Origin: a virus
Length of the DNA stretch: 41,934 bases
Direction: 5' to 3' (one strand)
Virus record (IMG/VR): IMGVR_UViG_3300031758_000162
Location: 1-41,934 of that record
The notes beneath the pieces are model-generated. The model worked only from the letters and a program-made list of their open reading frames with translations. It searched no databases and had not been told where the DNA came from. Position numbers and translations under genes: made by a program. Positions 4,717-37,290 of this stretch are shown piece after piece. Each line of letters begins with the position of its first letter. Position 1 is the first letter of the stretch.

Positions 4717-7700
4717 ATGGCTGACAGGTTCCTCGGAACAACTTCCCCCATGCTTCAGGGTTTGGGGCAGAACACTCCGCAGGCGATTGCCGACAGGGCC
4801 TCGCGCGATATCGACCAGTACGCTGCTGGTATCCGCGCGGGTCTGAGGACGCAAAACCAGCAGTTTATGCAGCCGGAAGAAGAACCCACGCAGCGTACTG
4901 CCCGTGTCGCCTACAGCCCCGAAGAGAACAAGTACTTCATTGGTGGTCATGTCGTTGACGCCAACAACGACACAGACGTTGCGGTCATGTCGAAGTACGC
5001 TGGGCAGGAAGCCCCGCTGCCTGAAGGTAACTGGCAAGTGGTGGACGATACCAGCTTCAGCCAGTATGTGCAGAGCATCCGTGACCCCGGTCTTCTGACC
5101 TTGATGGGCAAGAACTTCAGCATGGGTACGGACGAGATGCAGCAGATGGCTGGTCTCGGGCTTCAGTGGCTGGGTGCAGAGCAGACCGGGCAGTACTTGG
5201 CAGATCAGGAAGCAGACCTCCAGCCCAATCAGGTTTACAGTCGCAACTTCACCGATATTGGCTCTACGCCTGAGAACGGCGTCCTTGACTGGATGGCCGC
5301 GACCATCGGTCGCCTTGGCCCCAACGTGGTCGAGTCTGCCATCACTGCCGGTGTTGGTGCTGTCGCTGGTGGTGCTGCTACGGGTCCTGCCGCCCCCGCT
5401 GGTGCCGTGCTTGGTGCCATCGGTGGATTCTTCGGTAAGGCGGCGGTCAAGAAGGCGCTGCTCGAAGCTGCCAAGAAGCAGTTGAAGGGCGAAGCACTGG
5501 ACGCCGCCGAAAAGAAGCTCATGCTCTCTGCGGCTGGCATGACCAACGCGGCGGCGAATGCCGCCAAGACGCGCCTTGCTCCCGGTGCCTTTGACGAGAT
5601 GCTGAACGAGGGTCTGACGGCTGGTGCGCAGGCTGTGATGAAGCAGGCCCCTGCCATTGAGCGCCGTATGCGGCAGATCGGTGGTGGTATCGCAGCGTCT
5701 ACTGCTTCAAATATCTTCCAGCAAACGGGTGCTGCCTACGGCGAAACCATGGCTGACGGGGGCGAGGGCAACCGCCCTGTGTCTCTGCTGGTCGGTACGC
5801 TTGGCGGTCTTCTTGACACTGCCCCCGAACTGCTGCTGGCTGGCCGTCTCTTCAGTGAACTCGCGGGTGACGTTGTCGGCGTTGCCAAAACCCAGCGCAA
5901 GTCCATGGACATCCTCAAGGGTGTCGCCAAGGGGCGCACAGGCCGCATCGCCGGATACGGCGCACTTGGCATGGGTATCGAAGGCGCAACTGAAGGCACG
6001 CAGGAAGTCCTCCAGATCGCAGCTAACCCTGTCCTCGACCTGAACTCCGCTGAAGCGACCAATCGTATCATCAACGCCTTCGCTGCCGGTGCCCTAATGG
6101 GTGGCGTGATGGGCGGTGCCGGTGGTGCGTTCGCTGGTTCGCTGGCTGACAATAAGACCGAAGCCAATCTCCTGCTGCCGGTATCTCAGGACGATCCCGG
6201 CTATGCCCAGTATCTTATCGATCTGAAGAAGCAGATCGGTGACACTGAGTATAAGAAGGTCTTCGCCCCGCCGCAGCCCTACACCCGTATCATGGAAGAG
6301 CAGGCGGCTGAGCAGGCCGCTGTGCAGCAGATGACCAACCCTGTCGTTGGTCTTCAGCCTTTTGCTGGTACGCAGGCCCCGCTGACGGGTGCTGCTGACC
6401 AGACGTTCCAAGTTGGTCCTACACCCGCTATCCCCAGCACGATCCCCGGCCCATACTTCGGTACTGAAGGTGCCGTACCCGGCGCTATGGGGCAGGCTGG
6501 TCCTGTTCCGACTGTAACTCCGGGTGCGATGACTGTCGGTGCGCCGCCGTTGCAGATGTCTCCTGTGGCTCCTCCCACGCCTGCGGTTCCCCCCGTGACG
6601 GGTGGTCCCATGAGTATGGGCACCACCATGACCCCCGCTCAGACGGGTGGTTTCGGTACGTTTGAACAGTTCCAAGCCGCTGCATTGGCACAGGCGCAGC
6701 AGGCAGCGCAGGCGCAGCAGGGCGTACAGCAGCAGGCCGCACAGCGGCAGGGTGCGCAGCAATTTTTCGGCAGTCAGGCTGCGCCTGCGCAGCCTATCCC
6801 CACTGGTGTGGCACCCGGTACGGCACCTGCCCTTCCGATTGCTGATGTGGTGCGTGGTGTTCCCACCACGACCGAAGCCCGCCGCCGCGTCGCTACGGAT
6901 CGTATTGTTGCCAACCGTCAGGCTGAGCTTGCCCGTGGGCGGGCGCAGCAGTTCGTTGCAGGGCCGCAGCGCCAGCCGATTGCCCAGACCCCTATGGGTG
7001 CTGGTATGCAGGCAACGTACACCCCGGAACAGCTTGGTGGTGTGACTGGCTACGCACCCGTTAGGTCTGGAACGGAAACCCCTACTGCCACATTGCAGCG
7101 CCTTCAGCGCGGCAAAGCAAAGGGTAAGAAGGGCGAGCCGACTGGTAAGGTTACAGTTGTCCAGCGTGGCACTGAAGATGTGATACCCACAGGTACTGCT
7201 GCGCAAGTCGAAACGCTTTCGACTGGTGTTACGCCTAAACTTACACCCAACGTCGGTAAGGCATCGCAGCGTATCCGTACTTTCCTCAACCAGCTTTTGC
7301 TTGCTGGCAAGACGCAGTTCAATGAGAGCGACATCGCCAAGCATATCTTCAAGAAGCTGGGGAAGGTGACCAAGCTGTTGAAGGTCGAGAGGCTTACGCT
7401 TGAGCAGAAAGAGAAGGTACAGCGGTTTGCTGATACCATGGTCAACACGCTCAAGGTTGCTGATCGCGCACGCACATTCGGTACAGGCGGTGAAGAGTTC
7501 ACCATCAGGCAGGAGGTCATTGATGACTTCAGATCAGGACCGGGAGGCGCGGATACAAGGACTCTTGCAGACGTACCAGCAGACAGGGAGACTGGGGAAC
7601 AGCAGGCCGAGCAGCCCGGAGCAGGCGGAACGGCAGGCCCGCGCAATCGTGGCCGCGCAAGACAGCAGACCGCCGCCCAAGAACCCGCGCAAGCAGAACA

Positions 7701-10700
7701 AGGGCCTGCCGCCCGGAGTGAAACCCTACGGGAAGAAGCTGGTGGGGCCGCTAAGCTAGAGGAAAAGAAGCCAACGGGCAGGAAACCGCGACCCCCAAAA
7801 GCCCAAGGGGCGGTCGCGGTCGCCCCCTCAAAAACCCCCGCTGAACTGAAGGCTGAGAAGAAGGCCGCTGAGAAAGCTGCGAAGGACCTGAAGAAGGTCG
7901 ATGACGCTATCATAGCAGCCAATAATGCCAACGCGGATGAGCGCACGACTGCATTTGCTCAGCTTGTGCGGATGGGTAACGACGAGAAACTCTCGCCCGC
8001 TGCACGCGCCAAGGCGCAAGAGTACATTGTCACCGAACTCAGCCCGCTGGAACAGATAATGGTAGCTGCCCGTCTGGCAGATGCCAAGTACGCGGACCTA
8101 TCGGATGACGCCAAGGCTGACCTTGCCGCAGACGCCATGGAGGGGTCGAAAAACATCGATGAGAATAAGGTTCCCGCCAGTGAGTTGGAGGAGGTTTATT
8201 CCGCCGTTGCTCAAGTCAGGAAGCAGACAGATAAGATCAAGGGCCTAGCCAAGGCCGGTAAGGATACGCCCGAACGTAGGGAAGAGTACAGGAACGCTTT
8301 TACTAACCTCATCTTCTGGGCCAAGGGGCAGGGTATCTCTGATCAGGCGCAGTGGACTGCGCGTGCGTATCTTGAAACTTACAAGGACAAGACATCCCAA
8401 GGGTGGGCCGGTGTTGAGCAGGCGCTCAAGGACATCGATGAAGGGCGGTATCGCCTCTCCCAGTTCGACGCCGTCACTAACCCCGTGGATGAGAACGGTC
8501 GCCCCGCCAAGGGTGTGAACCCGATCCGGGCCAAGGCTATCGTGGACAAGTTCCGCAGTGGTCTTGCCAAGGCTCCGCGCTTCTACGTCTACAAGAACCA
8601 AGCTGACCTCCAGCGCCGCAATCCCGAACTGTACCAACGTGCAGTGGCAGCGCGTCCGCAGGGAGATTTCGACACTGCCCCGGCTTCGGGCTACGCCTTC
8701 GACAACACGGTGCTGGTCTTCACCGACCGCATCCCGACCGAGAAGCACATGCGGTTCCTGCTGGCTCACGAGGCCATCGGTCACTATGGTATGCGTGCTC
8801 TGCTGCCCGCGAAGCAGTTCGATGCACTCATGGACTACGTCTATGATAATAACCCCAGTGTGCGTCAGTCGGTCGATGGTGCTCTTGGCTTACGTCCTGC
8901 CGGGGTTGCGCCTATGTCTCGGCGCGGTTTTCTGAAAGGTGCAGGCTCTGTTATCGGGGCTGTTGCTGTTCCCAAGATGCCGCGCATCCCAGCAAAGCTA
9001 GATGTGGGTACGTTTGTTAGCGCATTCTCTGAAGTTCAAGAGAAGCTGCGTAATATCAACAACCCCGACAGTGTCGGAAAGGTGGGTGACCTCTTTCTTG
9101 AGATACTCTCTCCGATCAAGGGTTCTGACTACAAACAAGCCATCGCCAAGATGGACAGCATCCTCGACAACGCCAGATCACTAGACGGTGATGTTGAAGG
9201 TAGCAGCAGAGCACTCAGTAAACTTCTTACCGATCTTGAATACCAAGACGATGCGGATTTAATTATCCAGAATTGGTTTGAAGACAATGAAGGTAACGCA
9301 TCTTCACTACTGAAAGAGTTCAGTTCGCTGGTAGAGGAAGCCTACCAAAAGAGGAACATCGAGATTGAAGACCATCTCCGCTCTACATTGGACATGGTTA
9401 AGAAGAAAGTTGGAGGTGATACAAAGAGAGAAGCTCGTCCGACTACTAGCGAAGATGTTGACATGCTCGGTGCCCGCCGCGAGGCGGTCGAAGAGTACAT
9501 GGCGAAGTTCGCTGAGAAGCTGGACAGCAGCATCCTCGCCCGTGTCTGGTATGCCATCAAGGATGTACTGAACAAGCTGGGTGTGAAGTTCGAGGACGAC
9601 ATCGTCCGCTATCTCGTGTCTCAGGCCCGCAGCACCGTGCGCAATGGTTCGTCCATGTTCACGCCCAGCACCTTCGCGCTCAACCTCCAGACCGTGATGA
9701 CCAACAACGGCACGGGTAGGTTCAGTCAAGACTCGGTCTACTCTGCGCAGCATTCACTGCGCAATCAGCTTGACCTTCTCCCTACGCCGCCCGCCAGCAT
9801 GGAGGAAGCGACCAACACTCTCAGGGACCTCAAGATCGATAACCTCGACAGGTTCGAGAGGTTCGTGCGCAAGTTCCTGCGTCTGGGTACTTACAACGCT
9901 CTGCGCAACCATGGGGCAAACATCGCTGAGCATCTCAAGGACGCCATGCGCACGAACGCGGCGAAATTGTACAACACGTATAATGAACGTCTCGCCAAGC
10001 TGCTGGCACTGACGGGAAACTCTCGCCTCGTGGTATCTTATGCCTTGGTGATTAGCCGCCGCATTGCCAGCCCCCGGTTCAAGCTGGATAAGGAACTCCG
10101 CAACGCTCCTCTGCTCATCCTCGGTGATGAACGTCTGGACGGTTCCGGGCGTGACACGAAGGTTGACGAGGATGTACTCAAGAGGCTCCTCGCCATCGGC
10201 ACACTCTCCAAGAAGGAACTCGAAGACGGCGCGGAGATCACCTACGAGGAAGCCGTCGAAGGTAACAAGACCAAGAAAACCACTGAAAAGATCAAGGGTC
10301 TGAAGGAAGAACTCAAGCGTGAACTGACCGACGACGAGTATGACCGCTACGTCGAGACGATGCGGAACCTTGCCGACCTCCATGTGGAGCGCCTGAAGGC
10401 GCAGTTCGACAATTACTTCCTGTCTGAGAAGGTATCCACCAAGGGTATCAACAGGATACTCGCCAACAAGGAAGTGACAGGCGACGACGCCAAGTTCGTC
10501 AAGGACATCGTGAACCACGCCAAGAAGCTCTTCGTGGATGACATGGAATATGACGAGCGCGGCCTGCCGGATGTCACGACCAAGACGGCAATGCGCATGG
10601 AGCAGTTCTTCAAGGCGGTCAACACGGCTATCGTGAAGAAGGAGTTCACCGACGACCTGAAGAAGGACGTGCGGGAGTTCTATTTCCCGAAGCCGACGAA

Positions 10701-13422
10701 GAAGCTGACGAAGGAAGAGGAACAGGCTAGGGCCGAAGCCTTGGCGAAAGGTAACGAGAAGTCCGAAGCCGCCATCAAGAAGATTGAGGAGTTCCGTAGC
10801 CGCCGCAAGGAGTTCACCGGCCTCGAAGAGCAGAGCGTAATTTATACTGTGCAGGACAAGGTCAAGGAGATCGTCCTTGCTGACGCCGCATTCGAGCGGG
10901 CGCAGATGTTTGTGCGCAGGTCCATCGCCTCGTCGCACGTCCCGCTGTGGCGCGAGGGCAAGTTCCAAGTCCGTGTCGAAGCGCAGATCAACGGCAGGAC
11001 GGTTCAGCTTCATCCCGACGTGCAGAGCAAGATGATCTACAGCTTGGCTCCTAAACTGTCGGATGCTGAAAATCAGGCGGCGTTCTACAACGACGCTATG
11101 AAAGATATCGAGTACAGCGGCCTTGTCAGGGACGACGCGACCGGCGAGTACAAGACGCAGACCTTCAAGCTGTTCGCCCGTGCATCTCAGGCCGTGGATA
11201 CTGTCTCATCCGATCCGTCGCTGGATATTGACAACTTCCTCTATGTGTCGCGCGTCCTTGGTATCCCGCTGGCTCCTGACAAGCACGCCAAGGCGATCAC
11301 CATGCTTACGGCTCCGGGCAGTGCGCTTCGCAAGTCGCTGAAGTTCGATGACTCCCCCGGCTACGACCCCAGCAGGACAATCGACGCTGTTGCCCGCCAC
11401 GTCACCACGCGCTCGTCGCTCATCGTGAAGACGCGCTTTCAGCCGCTACTCCGTGATCTCATGGATCAGTCCTCTGAGACAGGCAAGAAGTGGTTCGGTG
11501 ATAAGGAAGCAGTCATCACTGCCAAGGAGCGCCTCGACGCCGCGACTGACCAGAAGCAGAAGGATTACTGGCAGGACAGGCTCACCAAGGAACTCTATAT
11601 GTACGTCATTACCAACCCCGGAGCCAAGGGTTGGGACGGTAGCCGCTCGACGTTCAACAATCAGCCGACCAAGGCCAGTCTTGGTATGCGCTTCTATAGC
11701 GACACCGTCAAAGACTTCGACGCCATCAACGATGCACCCAACATCAACGAGTCCACGTTCGAGGGTAAGCGGTACGCTGCACTGGCAAAGATGATCACCA
11801 GTGTGGGCTTCCTCGGCGGTGTGATGACGCAGTTCGCGCAGAACATCATGTCTTTCTATACCAACGTGCTGCCGTTCCTCGCGTCTAAGGATAGCCAGAC
11901 GGGCTTCGGTGGCGGCTTCGGCATGGCGGTCATGCCTATGTACCTGAAGTCCTTCAAGGACGTGGTTGGTTGGCGTGGACTTAATCCATTCTCTGATCCC
12001 ATCGAAGATGCCAAGGCATTCGAGAAGGCCGCAAATGAGATCAAGGCCGCGCGTGACGCTGGCAACACTGCCAAGGAAGCTGAGCTTATCCAGCAGTACG
12101 GCCTTACCTACTACGAAGCTCTGAACATCGCCCGCGAAATCCGCGAAGGTAAGCTCATCCCGGCGCAGGCCAACGCCTTGCTGGAGACTGCCCGTGGTAT
12201 GTTTACTGGTGCGTGGGCCAAGGGCTTCCTCAAGTTCTCTGACTGGTACATGGCTCCCTTCAACGTCTCGGAACAGGCCACCCGCCGCGCCACGTTCCTC
12301 ACCGCATTCCGTCTGGAGTTCAACCGCCTGAAGGAAGCCGGGTTCGCAGAGGACAAGGCCAGTGAGATGGCACGCCTGTTCGCCGTCGATACGGTGGATA
12401 AGACGCTGGGCGAGTACTCCAACACCAACCGTCCTCCCATGTGGCGCGATGGCTGGATGTCTCTGCTGTTCGTCTACAAGACTTACCCCCTGACATCTTT
12501 GTCACTGTTCAAGAACCTGTCGCGCGGCGGCAAGCTCGGCATGTTGACCGCACTCTACGTGTTGGCTGGTGCTGCGGGCTTCCCACTGGTGGATGACATT
12601 GAAGACTTCATCGATACGCTCTCGCAGCGCCTCGGCCTTGATCTTGGACAGGGTCCCGCTGTGCGCATGGCTATTGTTCGTCAGCTTGAAGAAGTCTTCC
12701 CCGGCTGGTCCGACTTCATCCTGCGCGGCCCGATGAACCACTACACAGGTATGGACGTTGGCGCGAAGTTCGGTCTGGAAGACTTCATTCCCGGCACAGG
12801 CATCTTCCTCAAGGGTGCCAACACCACGCAGGAACTCAAGAGTATCGCTGGACCTGTGATCGGTATGGGTCTGAGCATCGGTGAATTTGTCTACGCGGCT
12901 GGTCGCGCCCCGCTCTCGTCTACCACAAACTTGCTTGATGTATCCCGCGAAGCGCCCTTCTCACTGGTGCGTGCCATTGGTGACAGCGTAGCTTACATGC
13001 AGAATGGTGCTATCGTGGACCGCCGTGGATACATCGTCTCGCCGGAAGTCAGTGCAATGACAGTGGCGTCTCGCATCCTTGGCTTCTACCCCGCAGATGC
13101 AGCACGGCAGTACGACTTCATCAAGTATGCTAACCGCATGAACTATGACTACAAGGAGGTGGGCACTGCCTACAAGCTGGCGTGGGTCAAGGCCATGATG
13201 ACAGGCGACAGGGCACAGGCTGCACGCATCGTGCGCGAGGTCAACGACTGGAACGAGGCCAACAAGGGTGGGCCGGGGGTCATCCGCAACTTCCTGCGCA
13301 ACGCCCAGAAGGCGCTTCAGGAAGCCCGCCGCCCTGCTGGTGAGAGGCTCCTCAAGTCTGCGCCTGTCGCGTCCCGCGCCAGCCTCGAACGCTTCTTGGA
13401 CAACGTCGCACCGCCTGAGTGA
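4717..13422 (+). CDS. Giant internal virion / polyvalent protein with zincin-like domain
   Basis: 2901 aa in one frame. Residues about 190-470 hold Ala/Gly-rich hydrophobic helices and an EGATEGTQEVLQ motif seen in phage polyvalent proteins. Residues 490-860 are Pro/Gln-rich and probably disordered; about 940-1060 are low-complexity. A zincin-like motif HEAIGHYG begins at His1351 (Glu1352, His1356), and EAVEEYM near 1589-1595 could supply a later ligand. Between them lies an insert with SRRGFLKGAG (residues 1401-1410). The C-terminal 700 residues contain the hydrophobic and aromatic segments typical of these giant proteins (for example WMSLLFVYKTYPLTSLSLF). By position it is the third, largest ejection protein, likely delivered with the DNA. 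Polyvalent proteins of this type can protect or prepare entering DNA, but a specific activity cannot be assigned. Start: ATG with AAGGGT upstream. Confidence 0.7.
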   Translation: MADRFLGTTSPMLQGLGQNTPQAIADRASRDIDQYAAGIRAGLRTQNQQFMQPEEEPTQRTARVAYSPEENKYFIGGHVVDANNDTDVAVMSKYAGQEAPLPEGNWQVVDDTSFSQYVQSIRDPGLLTLMGKNFSMGTDEMQQMAGLGLQWLGAEQTGQYLADQEADLQPNQVYSRNFTDIGSTPENGVLDWMAATIGRLGPNVVESAITAGVGAVAGGAATGPAAPAGAVLGAIGGFFGKAAVKKALLEAAKKQLKGEALDAAEKKLMLSAAGMTNAAANAAKTRLAPGAFDEMLNEGLTAGAQAVMKQAPAIERRMRQIGGGIAASTASNIFQQTGAAYGETMADGGEGNRPVSLLVGTLGGLLDTAPELLLAGRLFSELAGDVVGVAKTQRKSMDILKGVAKGRTGRIAGYGALGMGIEGATEGTQEVLQIAANPVLDLNSAEATNRIINAFAAGALMGGVMGGAGGAFAGSLADNKTEANLLLPVSQDDPGYAQYLIDLKKQIGDTEYKKVFAPPQPYTRIMEEQAAEQAAVQQMTNPVVGLQPFAGTQAPLTGAADQTFQVGPTPAIPSTIPGPYFGTEGAVPGAMGQAGPVPTVTPGAMTVGAPPLQMSPVAPPTPAVPPVTGGPMSMGTTMTPAQTGGFGTFEQFQAAALAQAQQAAQAQQGVQQQAAQRQGAQQFFGSQAAPAQPIPTGVAPGTAPALPIADVVRGVPTTTEARRRVATDRIVANRQAELARGRAQQFVAGPQRQPIAQTPMGAGMQATYTPEQLGGVTGYAPVRSGTETPTATLQRLQRGKAKGKKGEPTGKVTVVQRGTEDVIPTGTAAQVETLSTGVTPKLTPNVGKASQRIRTFLNQLLLAGKTQFNESDIAKHIFKKLGKVTKLLKVERLTLEQKEKVQRFADTMVNTLKVADRARTFGTGGEEFTIRQEVIDDFRSGPGGADTRTLADVPADRETGEQQAEQPGAGGTAGPRNRGRARQQTAAQEPAQAEQGPAARSETLREEAGGAAKLEEKKPTGRKPRPPKAQGAVAVAPSKTPAELKAEKKAAEKAAKDLKKVDDAIIAANNANADERTTAFAQLVRMGNDEKLSPAARAKAQEYIVTELSPLEQIMVAARLADAKYADLSDDAKADLAADAMEGSKNIDENKVPASELEEVYSAVAQVRKQTDKIKGLAKAGKDTPERREEYRNAFTNLIFWAKGQGISDQAQWTARAYLETYKDKTSQGWAGVEQALKDIDEGRYRLSQFDAVTNPVDENGRPAKGVNPIRAKAIVDKFRSGLAKAPRFYVYKNQADLQRRNPELYQRAVAARPQGDFDTAPASGYAFDNTVLVFTDRIPTEKHMRFLLAHEAIGHYGMRALLPAKQFDALMDYVYDNNPSVRQSVDGALGLRPAGVAPMSRRGFLKGAGSVIGAVAVPKMPRIPAKLDVGTFVSAFSEVQEKLRNINNPDSVGKVGDLFLEILSPIKGSDYKQAIAKMDSILDNARSLDGDVEGSSRALSKLLTDLEYQDDADLIIQNWFEDNEGNASSLLKEFSSLVEEAYQKRNIEIEDHLRSTLDMVKKKVGGDTKREARPTTSEDVDMLGARREAVEEYMAKFAEKLDSSILARVWYAIKDVLNKLGVKFEDDIVRYLVSQARSTVRNGSSMFTPSTFALNLQTVMTNNGTGRFSQDSVYSAQHSLRNQLDLLPTPPASMEEATNTLRDLKIDNLDRFERFVRKFLRLGTYNALRNHGANIAEHLKDAMRTNAAKLYNTYNERLAKLLALTGNSRLVVSYALVISRRIASPRFKLDKELRNAPLLILGDERLDGSGRDTKVDEDVLKRLLAIGTLSKKELEDGAEITYEEAVEGNKTKKTTEKIKGLKEELKRELTDDEYDRYVETMRNLADLHVERLKAQFDNYFLSEKVSTKGINRILANKEVTGDDAKFVKDIVNHAKKLFVDDMEYDERGLPDVTTKTAMRMEQFFKAVNTAIVKKEFTDDLKKDVREFYFPKPTKKLTKEEEQARAEALAKGNEKSEAAIKKIEEFRSRRKEFTGLEEQSVIYTVQDKVKEIVLADAAFERAQMFVRRSIASSHVPLWREGKFQVRVEAQINGRTVQLHPDVQSKMIYSLAPKLSDAENQAAFYNDAMKDIEYSGLVRDDATGEYKTQTFKLFARASQAVDTVSSDPSLDIDNFLYVSRVLGIPLAPDKHAKAITMLTAPGSALRKSLKFDDSPGYDPSRTIDAVARHVTTRSSLIVKTRFQPLLRDLMDQSSETGKKWFGDKEAVITAKERLDAATDQKQKDYWQDRLTKELYMYVITNPGAKGWDGSRSTFNNQPTKASLGMRFYSDTVKDFDAINDAPNINESTFEGKRYAALAKMITSVGFLGGVMTQFAQNIMSFYTNVLPFLASKDSQTGFGGGFGMAVMPMYLKSFKDVVGWRGLNPFSDPIEDAKAFEKAANEIKAARDAGNTAKEAELIQQYGLTYYEALNIAREIREGKLIPAQANALLETARGMFTGAWAKGFLKFSDWYMAPFNVSEQATRRATFLTAFRLEFNRLKEAGFAEDKASEMARLFAVDTVDKTLGEYSNTNRPPMWRDGWMSLLFVYKTYPLTSLSLFKNLSRGGKLGMLTALYVLAGAAGFPLVDDIEDFIDTLSQRLGLDLGQGPAVRMAIVRQLEEVFPGWSDFILRGPMNHYTGMDVGAKFGLEDFIPGTGIFLKGANTTQELKSIAGPVIGMGLSIGEFVYAAGRAPLSSTTNLLDVSREAPFSLVRAIGDSVAYMQNGAIVDRRGYIVSPEVSAMTVASRILGFYPADAARQYDFIKYANRMNYDYKEVGTAYKLAWVKAMMTGDRAQAARIVREVNDWNEANKGGPGVIRNFLRNAQKALQEARRPAGERLLKSAPVASRASLERFLDNVAPPE
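7523..7759 (+). CDS. Embedded 78-aa gene overprinted on the giant virion gene
   Basis: This frame lies inside the 2901-aa gene, shifted by +1. Its ATG at 7523 is preceded by AGGAGGT at 7511-7517, a near-perfect Shine-Dalgarno site with 5-nt spacing, which is stronger than that of most genes here. The product looks like a real soluble protein: MTSDQDREARIQGLLQTYQQ, then TGRLGNSRPSSPEQAERQARAI, then a basic Pro/Lys-rich tail ending GLPPGVKPYGKKLVGPLS. The DREARI..LL..Y..TGR.G.SRP..p..A..QA.AIa pattern is familiar from small phage proteins of unknown function. In the long frame the same DNA encodes low-complexity Gly/Ala/Gln/Glu sequence, as expected when that frame is not the constrained one. 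Function unknown. Confidence 0.55.
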   Translation: MTSDQDREARIQGLLQTYQQTGRLGNSRPSSPEQAERQARAIVAAQDSRPPPKNPRKQNKGLPPGVKPYGKKLVGPLS

Positions 13423-24401: not shown

Positions 24402-24543
24402 CGGGGTCCAGTCCTGTGAGGAGCCTATACCTAACACGCAGTTCAGCGTACTTGTGTTCCATCCGGTCGAGCTTGGTGCGTATGTGGATAAGCATTACCA
24501 CAAAGTACACAGTTGAAGAGAGCAACAAGATCGTCTGCGCCAT
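24382..24543 (-). CDS. 53-aa single-pass membrane protein
   Basis: Read directly from the sequence. It begins at an ATG in a TGATG stop/start overlap and ends 20 nt inside the polymerase gene. Residues 3-21 (QTILLLSSTVYFVVMLIHI) form one transmembrane segment, followed by a charged, basic tail (RTKLDRMEHKYAELRVRYRL, ending DPDGHRND). An N-out, C-in anchor is likely. It belongs to a group of tiny membrane proteins in this operon. Role unknown: holin-like, spanin-like or host-membrane effector are all possible. Confidence 0.65.
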   Translation of the reverse strand: MAQTILLLSSTVYFVVMLIHIRTKLDRMEHKYAELRVRYRLLTGLDPDGHRND

Positions 24544-25773: not shown

Positions 25774-26756
25774 TTTGCATCCTCCGTTGTGACGTTGTAG
25801 CTCTTCTTGACGAAGCCCTTCGAGGCATCGCCACGCATGTGGTGCCGCCGCATATAGCGGAAGCGCCCGCACTTGGTGCAGTCCCAGTGGTTCTCTTCGT
25901 CCCCACGCTTCTGCCAAGTATGTTCGCAGTTGCGGGTTCCGTGCCGGTGAGCGTAGTGTGCTGGCACTTCGTGTGCCCTGCGGGTTTCCCCGCTGCCGGA
26001 ACTCATGGCCTTGCGGATTTGAACCGGGCTGTCGAGCGTGATGGTCACCACGTTGTGCGCCATGAAGGGGCGAGACTTACCACGGTACATCGTCCGATAT
26101 GCGGGCTTCTCGGTGAGCGCGATGGCTTTCTTCTGGTGCAGGAGCAGCAGGGCTGCGGCGTAGATGCGGGCTTCACCTATGTGACCGTCCATCACCGCTT
26201 TGGTTTGCAAGAGTGCGACCGATGTATCCCCGTAAAACATGGGTACGAAACGGCCAGCAAAATTCCTACGCTGCTCGGGGGTCAGGTCTACATATGTGGA
26301 ACCCAATACATGAAGCACCTGCTGATCCAACAGATCGCTTCTGAGGTTATCCCCCCACTCTTTTGCAATACGACTAAACCCATAGACTCCTGCCAACGTG
26401 TCAGCAACGTCACGGCTACATACGACTGTGTTAGTCCTACCTGCGTGAGATAAAAACCCAAGCTTCCAATCAGCTTTCTTACCAGCTTGTGAACCCGCAC
26501 GCCCAATGCCGTCGATCACAGCGTCAATCTCTACCTCCACATATGTTGTGGGGTATGGCTCAATAGCAAACTCAATTTGCTCTGCAATCAAGTCTGCACA
26601 CGTCCGAATGAACTGACCCAGCTTGAACGAAGCATCACGGTCGAACACATAGCAGCGGGCTTGCGGTGCTATAGACTTCATCCGCTTACTGGCCTCGGGG
26701 TGCAAAAGCGGACCCCACTTGGCGACAGGCAGTTCCTTGATATCATCCAGCAACAT
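25770..26756 (-). CDS. Hypothetical phage protein with C-terminal His/Cys-rich zinc-like tail
   Basis: 328 aa from the ATG at 26756, which has AAGGAG 10 nt upstream; the longer frame shadows the next gene. The N-terminal 220 residues are helical (FKLGQFIRTCADLIAEQIEF). The C-terminal part has HEVPAHYAHRHGTRNCEHTW, then CTKCGRFRYMRRHHMRGDAS, then GFVKKSYNV. The H-Y-x-H, R-x-H-x-R-G and V-x-K-x-Y-x-V pattern recurs at the C-termini of a widespread family of uncharacterised phage proteins. The Cys/His spacing suggests a zinc knuckle. Overlaps both neighbours. Function unknown. Confidence 0.6.
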   Translation of the reverse strand: MLLDDIKELPVAKWGPLLHPEASKRMKSIAPQARCYVFDRDASFKLGQFIRTCADLIAEQIEFAIEPYPTTYVEVEIDAVIDGIGRAGSQAGKKADWKLGFLSHAGRTNTVVCSRDVADTLAGVYGFSRIAKEWGDNLRSDLLDQQVLHVLGSTYVDLTPEQRRNFAGRFVPMFYGDTSVALLQTKAVMDGHIGEARIYAAALLLLHQKKAIALTEKPAYRTMYRGKSRPFMAHNVVTITLDSPVQIRKAMSSGSGETRRAHEVPAHYAHRHGTRNCEHTWQKRGDEENHWDCTKCGRFRYMRRHHMRGDASKGFVKKSYNVTTEDAK

Positions 26757-27198
26757 GGTGAACTTCTCCTTTGTCCCAGATAAACGTGTGGATTGGCTCA
26801 GCGCAGACAGGACTAAAGATACAGGCGACCTCGGCAGCTTGCGCTGCCGTAGCACCCATGGCAAGAGCGCCGTAGGCAAAGTCGCGGCCCTCACCGAATG
26901 CACACTTGGTTATGCCGTGGTCAATTGCAAAGGGCGATGCTTCATATCGCCGCACCCCGTTGGGGTCGATGACCACAAGCTCGGCGTCCCGGTGATACAG
27001 TACGGCTGGCGGAAACTTATCCAGCGTAGCGCCGTCGATGTACCACTCAGCGAGAGCCACAACATGCGAGGCAAGCCCAGCCCCAGTGATAAGCTGGTTG
27101 CGATGCACCCACCACTTCTTGATACTGTGCGTTGTCGTGCCAGCGACAGCGCCGCTGTCCACAGCGCATGTAGCTCCGTCGAATACGATAACAGTCAC
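26743..27198 (-). CDS. HslV/proteasome-like Ntn-hydrolase
   Basis: 151 aa from the second of two adjacent GTG codons, with AGGAG 8 nt upstream. After Met removal Thr becomes the N-terminus: T-V-I-V-F-D-G, as in HslV (T-T-I-V). TCAVDSGAVAGTTTHSIKKW gives an Asp and Lys at positions comparable to HslV Asp17 and Lys33. NQLITGAGLASHVVALAEWY and GEGRDFAYGALAMGATAAQA fit the strand-helix core and the G-x-G...A..A...G.sA.eA motif of proteasome beta-type subunits. Family members are self-assembling threonine proteases. Length is slightly short of HslV. No HslU-like unfoldase is adjacent; the phage MoxR ATPase or host HslU might act with it. Confidence 0.65.
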   Translation of the reverse strand: MTVIVFDGATCAVDSGAVAGTTTHSIKKWWVHRNQLITGAGLASHVVALAEWYIDGATLDKFPPAVLYHRDAELVVIDPNGVRRYEASPFAIDHGITKCAFGEGRDFAYGALAMGATAAQAAEVACIFSPVCAEPIHTFIWDKGEVHHVAG

Positions 27199-27293
27199 CA
27201 CCCCTGCTCCTTGGTTATTACGAGGAACACGATGAACGCGATGAAGCCAGCGCATCCACCGACGAGAACTGCCAGTGCCATATCTGTCTGCAT
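27195..27293 (-). CDS. 32-aa membrane peptide
   Basis: Read directly from the sequence: ATG at 27293, two bases after the upstream stop. The frame ends TGGTGA, and its stop overlaps the GTG of the HslV-like gene. The product (M-Q-T-D-M, then ALAVLVGGCAGFIAFIVFLV, then ITKEQGW) is essentially a single transmembrane helix with a Gly-Gly-Cys centre. The tight coupling supports real translation. Function unknown. Confidence 0.55.
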   Translation of the reverse strand: MQTDMALAVLVGGCAGFIAFIVFLVITKEQGW

Positions 27294-27295
27294 GT

Positions 27296-27673
27296 TTAGT
27301 TACCTTTGCTGTTGATGAGTATGTCCACTGCGGAGATGGCCCGCAGATATTCAGTCTTGTTCTCCTCGAACTTGGCTACAGCATGGACGATGGTCGTATG
27401 GTCCTTGGAGAGGAACCGCCCAATCATGGGATAAGACATATCTAGGCGGTTGCGGTAGACCACCCAGCAGAAGTGCTGGCGTGGCACCACGATGCGCTGC
27501 TCACGGCTCTTGGATTTGAGTTCCTCCTCGGTCACACCGTAGTATAAACATACGGCACGCAAGCAACGCTTCATCGTGTAGATGGCGCGGTTGTCCCGCG
27601 CCATCTCTTGCACCTGTTTGTGAACATCAGGGAAATGGTACATCAGATAATCAGCCCTCACATACTTAAGCAT
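27296..27673 (-). CDS. DnaA domain IV-like DNA-binding protein
   Basis: 125 aa. Residues 38-104 read as the C-terminal DNA-binding domain of DnaA: VCLYYGVTEEELKSKSREQR, then IVVPRQHFCWVVYRN, then LDMSYPMIGRFLSKDHTTIV, then HAVAKFEE. The K-D-H-T-T-I-V-H-A helix is the DnaA signature that contacts the DnaA box. No AAA+ domain is present, so it should bind DNA without ATP-driven oligomerisation. It may mark the phage origin, modulate transcription, or interfere with host DnaA at oriC. The ATG at 27673 overlaps the upstream gene by 8 nt; a longer frame adds 17 unconvincing residues. Confidence 0.8.
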   Translation of the reverse strand: MLKYVRADYLMYHFPDVHKQVQEMARDNRAIYTMKRCLRAVCLYYGVTEEELKSKSREQRIVVPRQHFCWVVYRNRLDMSYPMIGRFLSKDHTTIVHAVAKFEENKTEYLRAISAVDILINSKGN

Positions 27674-28370
27674 ATTCAAGGAACACCCCGAACTCACTGC
27701 GCAAGCGGTTGCGATGTTCGTCAATCGTGCGCTCGAACTCCGCAGCCAGATACTCGTAGCCCATGCTGCCGTTGGGGTAGCGGCAGAGATAGTTGAACAG
27801 TTCGTCTGGATACTGCCCGTCCTTCATCCACTGGGCAAGCTGCGGCAAGCCGTACTCATACTCGCCCTTGCTGCGCACACCCAGCTTCAGCCGGGAGAGA
27901 ACGCCCATGCGGTACTCACGCAGGGTCTTGAGCCATACCTTGCGGGCTTCCTTGTCGGTGTTCTTGTGCCTGTCAGTGCGGGGGTTGATGCACTGCTGGG
28001 TCTCCAGATTGAACTGGATGCCGCCGAAATACTCGGGCAGGTCCTTGAGGTATTTGTAGTTGACGAGGTAGCCAATGCGGTAGCGGCCCTGCCCGACACG
28101 GTAGACGCCAAAGGGGAGAAAGCGGGTCATGGTATAAACAAGGCTGGAGCAGACGGTACGCAAGAACGTATCGGTATCAATGGTGAAGGTGATCACGTCA
28201 TCCTTGGTGATCCGTGCGAAGGTCCGTTCGTGCATGGTGAGGCGGAAGCTGTCGTCCCTATCTTTGAACAGGCGCACGCCCTTGCCGTGCAGGGGCTTGC
28301 CCTGCACGGGGTTTCGCACGGTGGTAAACGCTTCGACGCAGTCGGCGTAGCTGTGGATATCGTAACCCAT
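27666..28370 (-). CDS. Hypothetical protein, 234 aa
   Basis: Not recognised. A mixed, soluble-looking sequence rich in Arg and Tyr: MGYDIHSYADCVEAF at the start, RYRIGYLVNYKYLKDLPEYF in the middle, and ELFNYLCRYPNGSMGYEYLA near the C-terminus. No catalytic motif, membrane segment or signal peptide is evident. Start: ATG with AAAGGA about 10 nt upstream, 12 nt after the preceding stop. The C-terminus overlaps the DnaA-like gene by 8 nt. Confidence 0.65.
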   Translation of the reverse strand: MGYDIHSYADCVEAFTTVRNPVQGKPLHGKGVRLFKDRDDSFRLTMHERTFARITKDDVITFTIDTDTFLRTVCSSLVYTMTRFLPFGVYRVGQGRYRIGYLVNYKYLKDLPEYFGGIQFNLETQQCINPRTDRHKNTDKEARKVWLKTLREYRMGVLSRLKLGVRSKGEYEYGLPQLAQWMKDGQYPDELFNYLCRYPNGSMGYEYLAAEFERTIDEHRNRLRSEFGVFLEYA

Positions 28371-31040: not shown

Positions 31041-31897
31041 AGACCACCCATGAACGCCGCCATCTTGTCCATGATGGCCTTGGCCTCATCGATCTTGGTG
31101 GCGCGGAGCTTATCGTTACCGACAACGGCGTCCTTGTTGAGGTTCGCCAGCTTCTGCTCGACCTCATGGCGCATGGCTTCGAGGTTGGGGTCATCCGCGA
31201 AGTTGAGGCGCGGCAGCAGTTCGCACAGGTCCTTGACGTGTTCGATGCTGCTCTCATGGAAACGTGACTTGGGATCGTCTACCTTAACCATCTTATCCAC
31301 AAGATGTTCCACCTTGTCGTAGAGCCGCTGCCATACATCCTTCATTGCGGAAGCACTGGCGTCCTGCACACGGCGCTCCACGTCCTGCTGAATACGCGCC
31401 AGTTCCTCGCCGCCAAGCTGAACCCGGAAATCGTTGGACGGTACGGGGAACACAGCCATATCCATCCTGAACTTGGCCGCGATCTGGCTCTCGTGGGGGT
31501 AGTCCTCCTCACGGTACAGCGAACCAAGGAACCGCTTGGAGTCGGCCTTCAGCGTGGGGAAGTTGGCGACGAACAGGTTCTTGAGCGTCTCCCACTCGGC
31601 CTTCTCCTTGCGGAACTCGTTGATGAAGTTCAGGTAGTTGGCAGTGGGCAGCAACTGGGTGCCTTCGATGCCCCATGCCAGCGTGTTCTCGTAGAACTTG
31701 TTGCGGATATAGCCCGCCTTCTGATGCACCATGGCGAGGTAGTCATTCGCCGGGAGCAGGGACTTGTGATAGCGGCCAACGGATGCGTTGACGCCATGAG
31801 CATGGGCCACCTCCTGTGTGGCCTTCTTGTCATGCTTTCGAGCGGTCCACTGGGAGATGGACAACTGGACGAGGAGAGCGCGGTCGGAGAGTTGCAT
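31037..31897 (-). CDS. DUF3150-like protein of the MoxR-VWA cluster
   Basis: 286 aa from ATG 31897, with AAGGAA about 9 nt upstream; the longer frame adds 13 residues across a hairpin. The pattern resembles DUF3150: LVQLSISQWTARKHDKKATQ, then YHKSLLPANDYLAMVHQKAG, TLAWGIEGTQLLPTANYLNF, a long helix, and YPHESQIAAKFRMDMAVFPV. The C-terminal third is helical and coiled-coil-like. DUF3150 proteins are typically encoded with a MoxR-type ATPase in phages, as here where the MoxR gene lies immediately upstream. Molecular role unknown; I infer a component or client of the MoxR-VWA machine. Confidence 0.65.
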   Translation of the reverse strand: MQLSDRALLVQLSISQWTARKHDKKATQEVAHAHGVNASVGRYHKSLLPANDYLAMVHQKAGYIRNKFYENTLAWGIEGTQLLPTANYLNFINEFRKEKAEWETLKNLFVANFPTLKADSKRFLGSLYREEDYPHESQIAAKFRMDMAVFPVPSNDFRVQLGGEELARIQQDVERRVQDASASAMKDVWQRLYDKVEHLVDKMVKVDDPKSRFHESSIEHVKDLCELLPRLNFADDPNLEAMRHEVEQKLANLNKDAVVGNDKLRATKIDEAKAIMDKMAAFMGGL

Positions 31898-33107: not shown

Positions 33108-33335
33108 CTACAAAACCATCTTCTTGACAGCGATGGCCGTCAGTATCTGAGGCTTCAGCGCCTTGAGTTCAGCGGGTGATACACGGGGGTCGGTAAGACC
33201 ATCGGCTTTGAACGACGAGGTCAGCCTGCCAGTGGCATAGCCGTAAAGCAGCACGACCCTGCGCCCACTCCTATGGGCAATGACCTCCGCATACTTTGGC
33301 TTGAGATTCACCCTATGGATGACCCAGTCGTCCAT
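33108..33335 (-). CDS. Hypothetical protein, 75 aa
   Basis: Not recognised. It contains strand-like sequence (DDWVIHRVNLKPKYAEVIAH then RSGRRVVLLYGYATGRLTSS) and a helical C-terminus (SPAELKALKPQILTAIAVKK). The ATG at 33335 lies in a TGATG overlap with the upstream stop; a GTG three bases earlier is an alternative. It ends 28 nt before the palindrome. Function unknown. Confidence 0.6.
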   Translation of the reverse strand: MDDWVIHRVNLKPKYAEVIAHRSGRRVVLLYGYATGRLTSSFKADGLTDPRVSPAELKALKPQILTAIAVKKMVL

Positions 33336-33574
33336 CACGTCACCATCTTGGCGAGGGTGGGCTTGTTGAAGCTCGGCACATAGAGCCTTTTCTTATACCC
33401 AAGCCCCACGTTGATGGCCTTGTAGTACAACACCGCCTGATGGATGTTCCCCATGAAGCGATAGCGAGTGCGGTACGCACTGCGGTTCTTGCCCACCTGC
33501 ACCAAGAACTCGGTCTGGTTGGTGTAGGCAATGCGCTTGCCGTCGAGGGTGACGTATTTGATTTCGATATCCAT
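33335..33574 (-). CDS. Hypothetical protein, 79 aa
   Basis: Not recognised. Basic and Tyr-rich with alternating strand-like segments: MDIEIKYVTLDGKRIAYTNQ, then TEFLVQVGKNRSAYRTRYRF, ending KKRLYVPSFNKPTLAKMVT. A small beta-rich protein seems likely. Its end (AKMVT, then TGATGG) is identical at the DNA level over 18 nt to the end of the 103-aa gene at 24543. Starts three bases after the preceding stop. Function unknown. Confidence 0.6.
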   Translation of the reverse strand: MDIEIKYVTLDGKRIAYTNQTEFLVQVGKNRSAYRTRYRFMGNIHQAVLYYKAINVGLGYKKRLYVPSFNKPTLAKMVT

Positions 33575-36338: not shown

Positions 36339-36578
36339 TTACTCCTGAGAATATGTTACGAACAACACGGTGCAGGAACCACGAGGGGTGAACTTGAGCA
36401 TGTCGCCGTAGTCTTCCCAGCGGCCTCGAACGCCCTTGATGCCCATCAGGTCCTTGGCGAAGCCCTTGATGAAGCTATTGGGCGTACCCTGTTCCACCAT
36501 GAAGGTGTCACGTTTGACCCAAGCGTAGTTGGCCTCACCGCCGAACGTATCTGTAAACTCTACTGTAAACTTATCCAT
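36339..36578 (-). CDS. Hypothetical protein, 79 aa, first gene of the long - strand operon
   Basis: Not recognised. MDKFTVEFTDTFGGEANYAW, then VKRDTFMVEQGTPNSFIKGF and GRWEDYGDMLKFTPRGSCTV suggest a small alpha/beta protein. The ATG at 36578 has AAGGAG 7 nt upstream. It is preceded by leader copy C and the AT-rich control region, so it should be the promoter-proximal gene of the 23-kb operon. Function unknown. Confidence 0.65.
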   Translation of the reverse strand: MDKFTVEFTDTFGGEANYAWVKRDTFMVEQGTPNSFIKGFAKDLMGIKGVRGRWEDYGDMLKFTPRGSCTVLFVTYSQE

Positions 36579-36664
36579 TTGGTATCTCCTTAGGCCGTTG
36601 ATCGACCGTGGCACAGCGTCCCACAAATCCGGCGCGGCGTCGATGCGACACGTCGTCGCACCCC
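36579..36664 (-). promoter_or_regulatory. Shared leader element, copy C (head of the long operon)
   Basis: On the + strand it contains the perfect inverted repeat TGCGAC-N5-GTCGCA (36644-36660) with the flanking GTCGATGCG shared with copies A and B. A more diverged downstream half follows. It sits between the AT-rich region and the first gene. This is the copy where promoter or operator function is most natural, because an operon head needs one. Confidence 0.6.
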
Positions 36665-37290
36665 CATAAGTGTAAACTTTAGATGTAAAGTTAGGCTAAG
36701 TTTACATGCCGAAAGGCTCGACTATCCGTTAACAGATAGCTAACAGGGCGATTTTAGATAGGCGACAGATAGGCGTAAGTCTTTGTTTTTATTGGGTGCT
36801 ATCTGTACTATCTGAACTATCTGTGTTTTTTCTGTTAATGTGGGGGTAACTTGGGAAGGTGAGGCGGGTTAGGAGTGTAAAGTCCTAGTGTCTTAGTAGA
36901 GTATATGAAAAAAAAAGGTGAGTGACTCTTAATAATATACAGATAGTTAGATAGTATAGATAGATAGACGCTCTGGTATTTTGCTAAGTCCTTGGTTTCA
37001 TTGGTCTTTCGGGAATTATACTGTAAAGTATTCCCTCTTTGTTCGTGTAAAGTTAGCTACAGATTTTACATCTAGCACAGCCCAAATCGCAGATAGTTGG
37101 CGCTAAGTGCTTGAAATCATTGAGTGTAAAGTTATAATCGGGTTTACATAAGGGGCTTAGGTTGTAAGATAGCCAGAGGACTTAAGAGTTCACCTTTTTA
37201 CGGCAAGCTATAGGCCCCCGACGTATGGCCGAACGAAGTGAGGGCAAAACCCCCCAACGCCACAGGCGCGGCAGGTCAAAACGCAGGCAA
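36665..37290. promoter_or_regulatory. AT-rich non-coding region with multiple short repeats (candidate origin / early control region)
   Basis: No convincing gene is seen in about 600 bases, which are far more AT-rich than the rest of the window. Repeats include TGTAAA...TTTACA inverted pairs at 36684-36706, 37046-37070 and 37125-37148. Single TGTAAA sites occur at 36671, 36876 and 37022. CAGATAG or CTATCTG occurs at 36733, 36766, 36799, 36808, 36817, 36940 and 37090. A TAAGTNCTTG...ATTG motif recurs near 36776, 36984 and 37103. An A9 run lies near 36908. AT-richness with repeated sites at an operon head is typical of a replication origin and/or a repressor-controlled early promoter region. 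I could not choose a single promoter. Confidence 0.6.

Follow-up and report, generated by a model that had tools for sequence, protein, structure and literature searches.

A phage-encoded stand-alone DnaA domain IV protein that appears to be accessory and may compete with host DnaA

Introduction

Stand-alone copies of DnaA domain IV are already known in phages, many of whose proteins are annotated as 'DnaA C-terminal', and 'replication initiator' is a frequent label of this form. The question at stake is whether such proteins, as a class, initiate the replication of the phage or prevent that of the host. It is raised here by a small gene in a 41,934-base IMG/VR virus record (the window, meaning the whole stretch of DNA that was analysed), which carries phage genes for a terminase large subunit, a head-tail adaptor/portal, a family-A DNA polymerase, a primase-helicase, a helicase, an exonuclease and a dCMP deaminase. 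In the accessible portions of the open-access literature, no study testing the function of a stand-alone domain IV from a phage was found. An earlier note on this DNA had suggested that the protein could tag the phage origin, recruit the primase-helicase or compete with host DnaA, and these proposals are weighed below against sequence comparison, a predicted structure and the genomes of related phages.

The gene and its genomic setting

The gene lies between two others encoded on the same strand, as follows.

27666..28370, minus strand: upstream neighbour p234, 234 aa, whose 3′ end overlaps the start of the following gene by 8 bases
27296..27673, minus strand: gene of the stand-alone DnaA domain IV protein (DnaA-IV), 125 aa, with an ATG start at 27673 and the stop included
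26743..27255, minus strand: downstream neighbour, HslV-like peptidase, 170 aa (PHROG 1040, E 6.4e-17)

No Pfam or PHROG match was obtained for p234. An identical DnaA-IV protein is encoded in two further IMG/VR contigs (L001 and L002), which share 99.9% DNA identity with the window over 16,168 bases and 99.98% over 24,325 bases, respectively. Since these near-identical contigs carry the same protein, the gene is not an artefact of assembly.

Part of the phage genome is missing from the window. A near-identical contig, G007 (IMGVR_UViG_3300008450_000065), joins both window ends through a stretch of ~15.8 kb that is absent here, so that the genome would measure ~57.7 kb. Within this missing stretch, a dense GC-rich short repeat occupies positions 33,160-33,400 of G007. 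In the virion-gene region of the window, a single ORF of 2901 aa spans 4717-13422 on the plus strand.

Domain identity and predicted structure

It was first asked whether the 125-aa product is a DnaA domain IV at all. The elements bearing on this point are listed below.

27371..27562, minus strand: Bac_DnaA_C (PF08299) match, model positions 5-68 of 69
27503..27505, minus strand: codon of Arg57 (invariant in 8/8 and 11/11 aligned proteins), which corresponds to E. coli Arg399, a residue in contact with the minor groove in the 5′ part of the DnaA box
27392..27406, minus strand: residues 90-94, the KDHTT signature that opens the recognition helix, with Thr93 equivalent to E. coli Thr435 (from the sequence and alignments)

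Residues 38-101 matched PF08299 (E-value 2.1e-18; 66.5 bits, cut-off 31.5), and this was the sole Pfam family above its cut-off; no AAA+ domain was detected in the protein. When compared with the NCBIfam model of DnaA (TIGR00362), DnaA-IV covered only the C-terminal columns 332-422 of 437 and scored 68.2 bits, far below the cut-off of 343.9 for a whole-protein DnaA initiator. The scores for the PRK06030 family were also low (15.4 bits versus 148 for NF004686 and 12.8 versus 136 for NF004688). Both the AAA+ ATPase domain III and the helicase-binding domain I of the initiator are absent from the 125 residues, and no feature that would serve to bind ATP, oligomerise, melt DNA or load a helicase was found in them. 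A sequence search of the PDB returned matches that were all DnaA (8btg, 3pvp, 1j1v, 2hcb and 1l8q).

The AlphaFold2 model, computed from an input alignment of 11 sequences taken from the window and the fetched loci, reached a pLDDT of 90.7 and a pTM of 0.79. By VIA-align, it was superimposed on 3pvp_B (M. tuberculosis domain IV with DNA; Z 16.9, rmsd 1.4 A, 92 residues) and on 1j1v_A (E. coli domain IV with a DnaA box; Z 16.8, rmsd 1.3 A, 90 residues), whereas the best row other than DnaA had a Z of 6.2. Among the families listed in the PDB sequence and fold searches, no non-DnaA family stood well above background.

The residues that contact the DnaA box in E. coli have counterparts in DnaA-IV. 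The accessible text of PMC5742627 describes Arg399 as entering the minor groove and the helix 434-451 as entering the major groove of the box, and reports R399A and T435M as defective in box binding. In the alignment, Arg399 corresponded to Arg57 and Thr435 to Thr93, and the protein carries the contact set Arg57 plus Asp91, His92, Thr93 and Thr94 (DHTT). Arg57, Asp91, His92 and Thr94 were invariant in 11/11 aligned proteins, and Thr93 was kept in at least 90% of them. The same two contact regions are described for B. subtilis domain IV, which was used as an isolated soluble construct, in the part of PMC11511705 that was available. DnaA-IV also differs from the E. coli protein, as one residue was gained after Arg65-Gln66 and one was lost before KDHTT. 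Moreover, Tyr occupies the position matching what we take to be Leu422 in E. coli numbering. Because of this substitution and of the one-residue gain and loss in the recognition region, the specificity of DnaA-IV may differ from the standard box.

A further hallmark of DnaA domain IV is the binding of TTATNCACA, which DnaA-IV may share. These results altogether fully support, at the level of sequence and model, the assignment of DnaA-IV as a stand-alone DnaA domain IV, which keeps the fold and, very probably, specific DNA binding. The earlier note had recognised the signature KDHTTIVHA, which is indeed present in the translation, and had described a domain IV without AAA+; Pfam, the contact residues and the predicted fold all agree with it. 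A predicted structure departing from DnaA domain IV, which it had named as grounds for abandoning the idea, did not materialise, as the match to 1j1v_A illustrates.

Distribution among phage relatives

Relatives of the phage were gathered with its 955-aa primase-helicase, which yielded 80 related loci. Among 50 records (the window plus 49 others, many of them partial), PF08299 matches were found in the window and in G003 only. The true absences are fewer than this count implies, given that G007 and G008 represent the same phage cut short and that many other records are partial. The use of G007 and G008 as natural knock-outs of DnaA-IV was considered and rejected, since these near-identical contigs simply end at window positions 27262 and 25895.

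Sixteen other contigs were then read whole by tblastn and an unfiltered profile search. DnaA-IV was detected in G003 only, the next best hit having an E-value of 0.86. Four of the contigs (G007, G009, G012 and G037) fall short of the place between p234 and polA. That place is covered in 11 longer relatives sharing the replication genes (G013, G017, G023, G026, G030, G032, G040, G043, G047, G051 and G053), and all 11 are without DnaA-IV. This phage family replicates without the protein and relies on a family-A DNA polymerase, a primase-helicase, a helicase and an exonuclease that it encodes itself.

Both p234 and the HslV-like gene were found in seven of the 11 relatives. They are directly adjacent in three (G053, G030 and G023), separated by one different ORF of ~70-80 codons with Cys pairs in two (G013 and G017), and separated by several other short ORFs in the remaining two (G026 and G040). 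The junction between p234 and the HslV-like gene (27255-27666 in the window) is a variable accessory slot across the phage family. The earlier note had drawn attention to the position of the gene just before the HslV-like gene; the order is correct, but the adjacency is incidental, because the HslV-like gene follows p234 at the same place in relatives without DnaA-IV.

The homologue in G003 is 63% identical to DnaA-IV. Between the window and G003, the dN/dS of DnaA-IV was ~0.16 with a dS of 1.56, which is near saturation; for the neighbours, whose dS was likewise near saturation, it was 0.33 (p234), 0.29 (p206) and 0.26 (HslV-like). Judged from these ratios, DnaA-IV is apparently under purifying selection. 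The simplest reading of the distribution is that DnaA-IV is an accessory gene gained at a variable slot in the lineage of the window and G003; repeated loss would be a less simple alternative.

DnaA boxes in the phage genome

If DnaA-IV acted on the phage's own origin through standard sites, DnaA boxes might be expected to form an array there. No such array was found in the window, where the boxes are scattered. Under a second-order model, the consensus TTWTNCACA occurred three times exactly (24483, 31293 and 39668) versus 0.83 expected, and 21 times with up to one mismatch versus 23.7 ± 5.3 expected. A depletion of boxes had been considered, given that dinucleotide shuffles predicted 35.5 occurrences against the 21 found, but the second-order model predicted 23.7, and neither depletion nor enrichment is claimed. 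One exact box, TTATCCACA at 24483-24491, precedes the start of polA by some 50-90 bases. None of the exact boxes of the window is exact at the aligned place in G003: the DNA before polA is unalignable there and holds no exact box, and the boxes at 31293 and 39668, which lie in coding sequence, are broken by substitutions.

The other carriers were similar in this respect. No tight array of exact boxes was present anywhere in the records of seven named phages that matched DnaA-IV, nor in those of G004 and G005; the AT-rich PJN03 record had 14 exact boxes versus 11 in its reversed control. No clustered 9-mers were found close to the stand-alone gene in the seven named phages, taken as partial records, or in two prophage-like loci. 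In the available part of a survey of alphaproteobacterial phages, predicted DnaA sites had no positional asymmetry in any phage group (PMC9437464).

A two-motif region shared by the phage family

The region 36665-37290 had been proposed in the earlier note as a place where binding should be looked for. It holds two clustered motifs, delimited here as follows.

36540..37200, no strand assigned: clustered TGTAAAS and CAGATAG region, mostly intergenic; candidate origin or regulatory region of the family, judged not DnaA-IV-specific

In this region, TGTAAASTT occurs at six sites and CAGATAG at seven, and neither occurs in the rest of the window. The shorter TGTAAA is present 11 times in the 36.5-37.2 kb region versus six in the rest of the window, and also 11 times in the G003 counterpart. 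Both motifs are clustered at the same place in G003, in which the surrounding DNA is only ~68-71% identical to that of the window. The CAGATAG variant is typical of the window and G003, and other relatives have other variants.

The motifs were searched for in a fixed stretch of 800-2000 bases upstream of terS, with reversed controls, in 13 of 17 genomes; G007, G009, G012 and G032 were excluded, as their contigs lacked the stretch upstream of terS, yielded no terS or ended at this gene. As the motifs were derived from the window, the p-values are independent only for genomes other than the window itself (G000) and G003. The weaker p-values are in addition inflated by the AT content of the stretch, which exceeds that of the genome. 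TGTAAAS was over-represented (p<0.05, down to 5e-13) in eight of the ten slot-covering relatives without DnaA-IV, the exceptions being G013 and G026. The lowest p-value (5e-13) came from G051, one of these eight, which has 12 of its 31 TGTAAAS sites in 1.2 kb. AGATAG/GATAGT was over-represented in nine of the ten (not in G043), although G047 was no better than its control. Over-representation was rare in the reversed controls. A TGTAAAS cluster was also present in G037 (8 of 23 sites, p 5e-8), whose contig ends in the interval from polA to the ATPase gene; the slot is not covered there, so this phage was not counted as lacking DnaA-IV.

The two clustered motifs thus recur at the same place in the window (36540-37200), in G003 (C1:880-1700) and in the terS-upstream stretches of G017, G023, G030, G037, G040, G043, G047, G051 and G053. 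The pair consists of TGTAAASTT and of the variants CAGATAG, TAGATAGT or TAGATTGT, the second motif shifting between subgroups of the phage family. Near positions 1475-1501 of G003:C1 (locus L045), two TGTAAA-type motifs face each other within the palindrome TAACTTTACAGTAAAGTTA.

The two-motif region is a candidate for a family-wide replication origin or regulatory hub. Since the clusters occur without DnaA-IV, the region appears to belong to the family at large and to be the target of some other binder. Its interpretation as a DnaA-IV signature, which was the first hypothesis and implied binding at the phage origin, was dropped for the same reason. The region singled out earlier therefore does contain clustered TGTAAASTT and CAGATAG, but it is not specific to the DnaA-IV gene. 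The proposals that DnaA-IV tags the phage origin or recruits the primase-helicase are likewise disfavoured: all 11 covering relatives share the replication genes and do without it, the motif region exists without it, no box array accompanies it, and no exact box is conserved in G003. The label of initiator is unsupported for the window protein on similar grounds, given that DnaA-IV is dispensable in its phage family and has no accompanying DnaA-box array.

Possible function and rival explanations

DnaA boxes cluster at the oriC of bacterial chromosomes. With its DNA-binding domain intact, no effector domain, a replisome encoded by the phage itself and no box array in the phage genome, sites on the host chromosome require the fewest extra assumptions for DnaA-IV. 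It is tentatively suggested, as the most likely of the explanations considered, that the protein is an initiation-dead DNA-binding protein that may sit on host DnaA boxes and compete with host DnaA; the binding, the host target and the mechanism are all inferred. Competition with host DnaA, one of the proposals of the earlier note, would be compatible with all the findings. Devoid of AAA+ and of domains I and II, DnaA-IV would bind DNA yet be unable to assemble into a DnaA filament, to open the duplex or to retain a helicase. It would occupy sites of the DnaA-box type outside the phage genome, either at host oriC or at DnaA-controlled promoters, and the displacement of host DnaA would hold back new rounds of host replication. 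A narrower form of this proposal, which is rather doubtful, pictures a 'headless DnaA' decoy that would cover the boxes of the host origin, allow no ATP-DnaA filament and stop new host rounds, with the phage using an unrelated, box-less origin. If the decoy were real, DnaA-IV would be a mobile host-replication blocker picked up by phages as cargo. Some observations speak against competition with the host. The nearest stand-alone relatives lie in replication modules (RHph_N28_2 and a Rhizobiales prophage-like locus), a location suggestive of some part in phage replication in these cases; the three exact boxes represent a slight excess, though unclustered; and a changed specificity would void the argument from the missing array.

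The main rival, which is somewhat unlikely, takes up that last point and supposes that DnaA-IV, with its specificity changed to CAGATAG or TGTAAASTT, binds 36540-37200 and contributes to the onset or timing of phage replication or early transcription. The confinement of both full motifs to this region of the window, the recurrence of the motif pair at the same place in G003, which alone shares the gene with the window, a CAGATAG variant characteristic of these two and the nearest homologues in replication modules would fit this explanation. It is weakened by the enrichment of the motifs in relatives without the gene, where something else must bind, and the match between variant and gene amounts to a single evolutionary event; that DnaA-IV shaped the CAGATAG variant is accordingly a residual possibility resting on that one event. 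DnaA also acts as a transcription factor, and with an exact box just before polA, DnaA-IV might regulate a few phage genes through single boxes such as TTATCCACA; this is improbable, as that box has no counterpart in G003, the other two are coding and broken there, and the number of boxes is at or slightly above chance. That DnaA-IV draws the initiation apparatus of the host (its DnaA or its helicase loader) to phage DNA is improbable to a greater degree: other phages carry stand-alone DnaA domain IV proteins, some of them annotated as replication initiators, but DnaA contacts DnaB and other DnaA molecules through domains I and III, which DnaA-IV lacks, and the family encodes its own replication proteins, with relatives managing without the gene. 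That DnaA-IV is a drifting, functionless remnant is very improbable. Its small size, accessory status and confinement to one lineage would suit a remnant, yet its dN/dS is below that of its neighbours, its contact residues are kept, and it is intact in three contigs of the same phage and in G003.

Comparison with known systems

Relatives of DnaA-IV occur in other phages. In the BFVD, 21 viral models matched it at E <= 0.001, and many of them were named 'Chromosomal replication initiator, DnaA C-terminal' from uncultured Caudovirales. By tblastn, 40 of 50,697 phage records had a relative at E <= 0.01, some of which were pieces of host chromosome labelled as phage. In a plasmid search, most hits were complete dnaA genes carried by large replicons or by chromosomes filed wrongly as plasmids. 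In the accessible parts of the literature, DnaA is mentioned as a protein of Polaribacter phages (PMC4615864) and of HTVC010P-related phages (PMC6811365), and a 'DnaA-like replication initiator' is mentioned in Bacillus phage Pony (PMC3853050).

The closest stand-alone relatives were the G003 homologue, that of Rhizobium phage RHph_N28_2 (42% identity over 74%) and those of the Rhizobiales loci L302 and L313. In RHph_N28_2, the gene lies in a replication module, after a DUF1376 protein; in L302, a PHROG 'replication initiation protein' stands directly before it, and in L313 a terminase is nearby, neighbours from which both loci look like prophages. An extra residue after PRQ/PRH is common to the closest stand-alone proteins and absent from four full-length DnaA in the same alignment. 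As far as sequence relationships go, the source of DnaA-IV likely lies among alphaproteobacterial phages.

Like the window, Pelagibacter phages HTVC204P and Skadi-4, RHph_N28_2, Octadecabacter DB virus 2 and Microcystis phage Mae-JY35 ('DnaA-like'), as well as uncultured Caudovirales, encode DnaA domain IV in stand-alone form. N-terminally longer proteins (~180-200 aa) occur in RHph_N28_2 and the Rhizobiales loci, where they are encoded in a replication module or near a terminase, whereas the gene in the window codes for 125 aa and is inserted between p234 and the HslV-like gene. With the DnaA domain IV structures (PF08299; 1j1v, 3pvp and 8btg), DnaA-IV has in common the fold, the length and the equivalents of Arg399 and DHTT; it differs from them in being encoded alone, and its identity over the structural alignment is 22-28%. 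A parallel in mode of action to the proposed competition with host DnaA is offered by the phage-derived E. coli protein YfdR, which reduces initiation from oriC when supplied in excess together with its gene cluster, according to the accessible text of PMC4776307. As described there, YfdR binds the DnaA protein itself, for which Phe46 matters, and not the DnaA boxes, which DnaA-IV would occupy.
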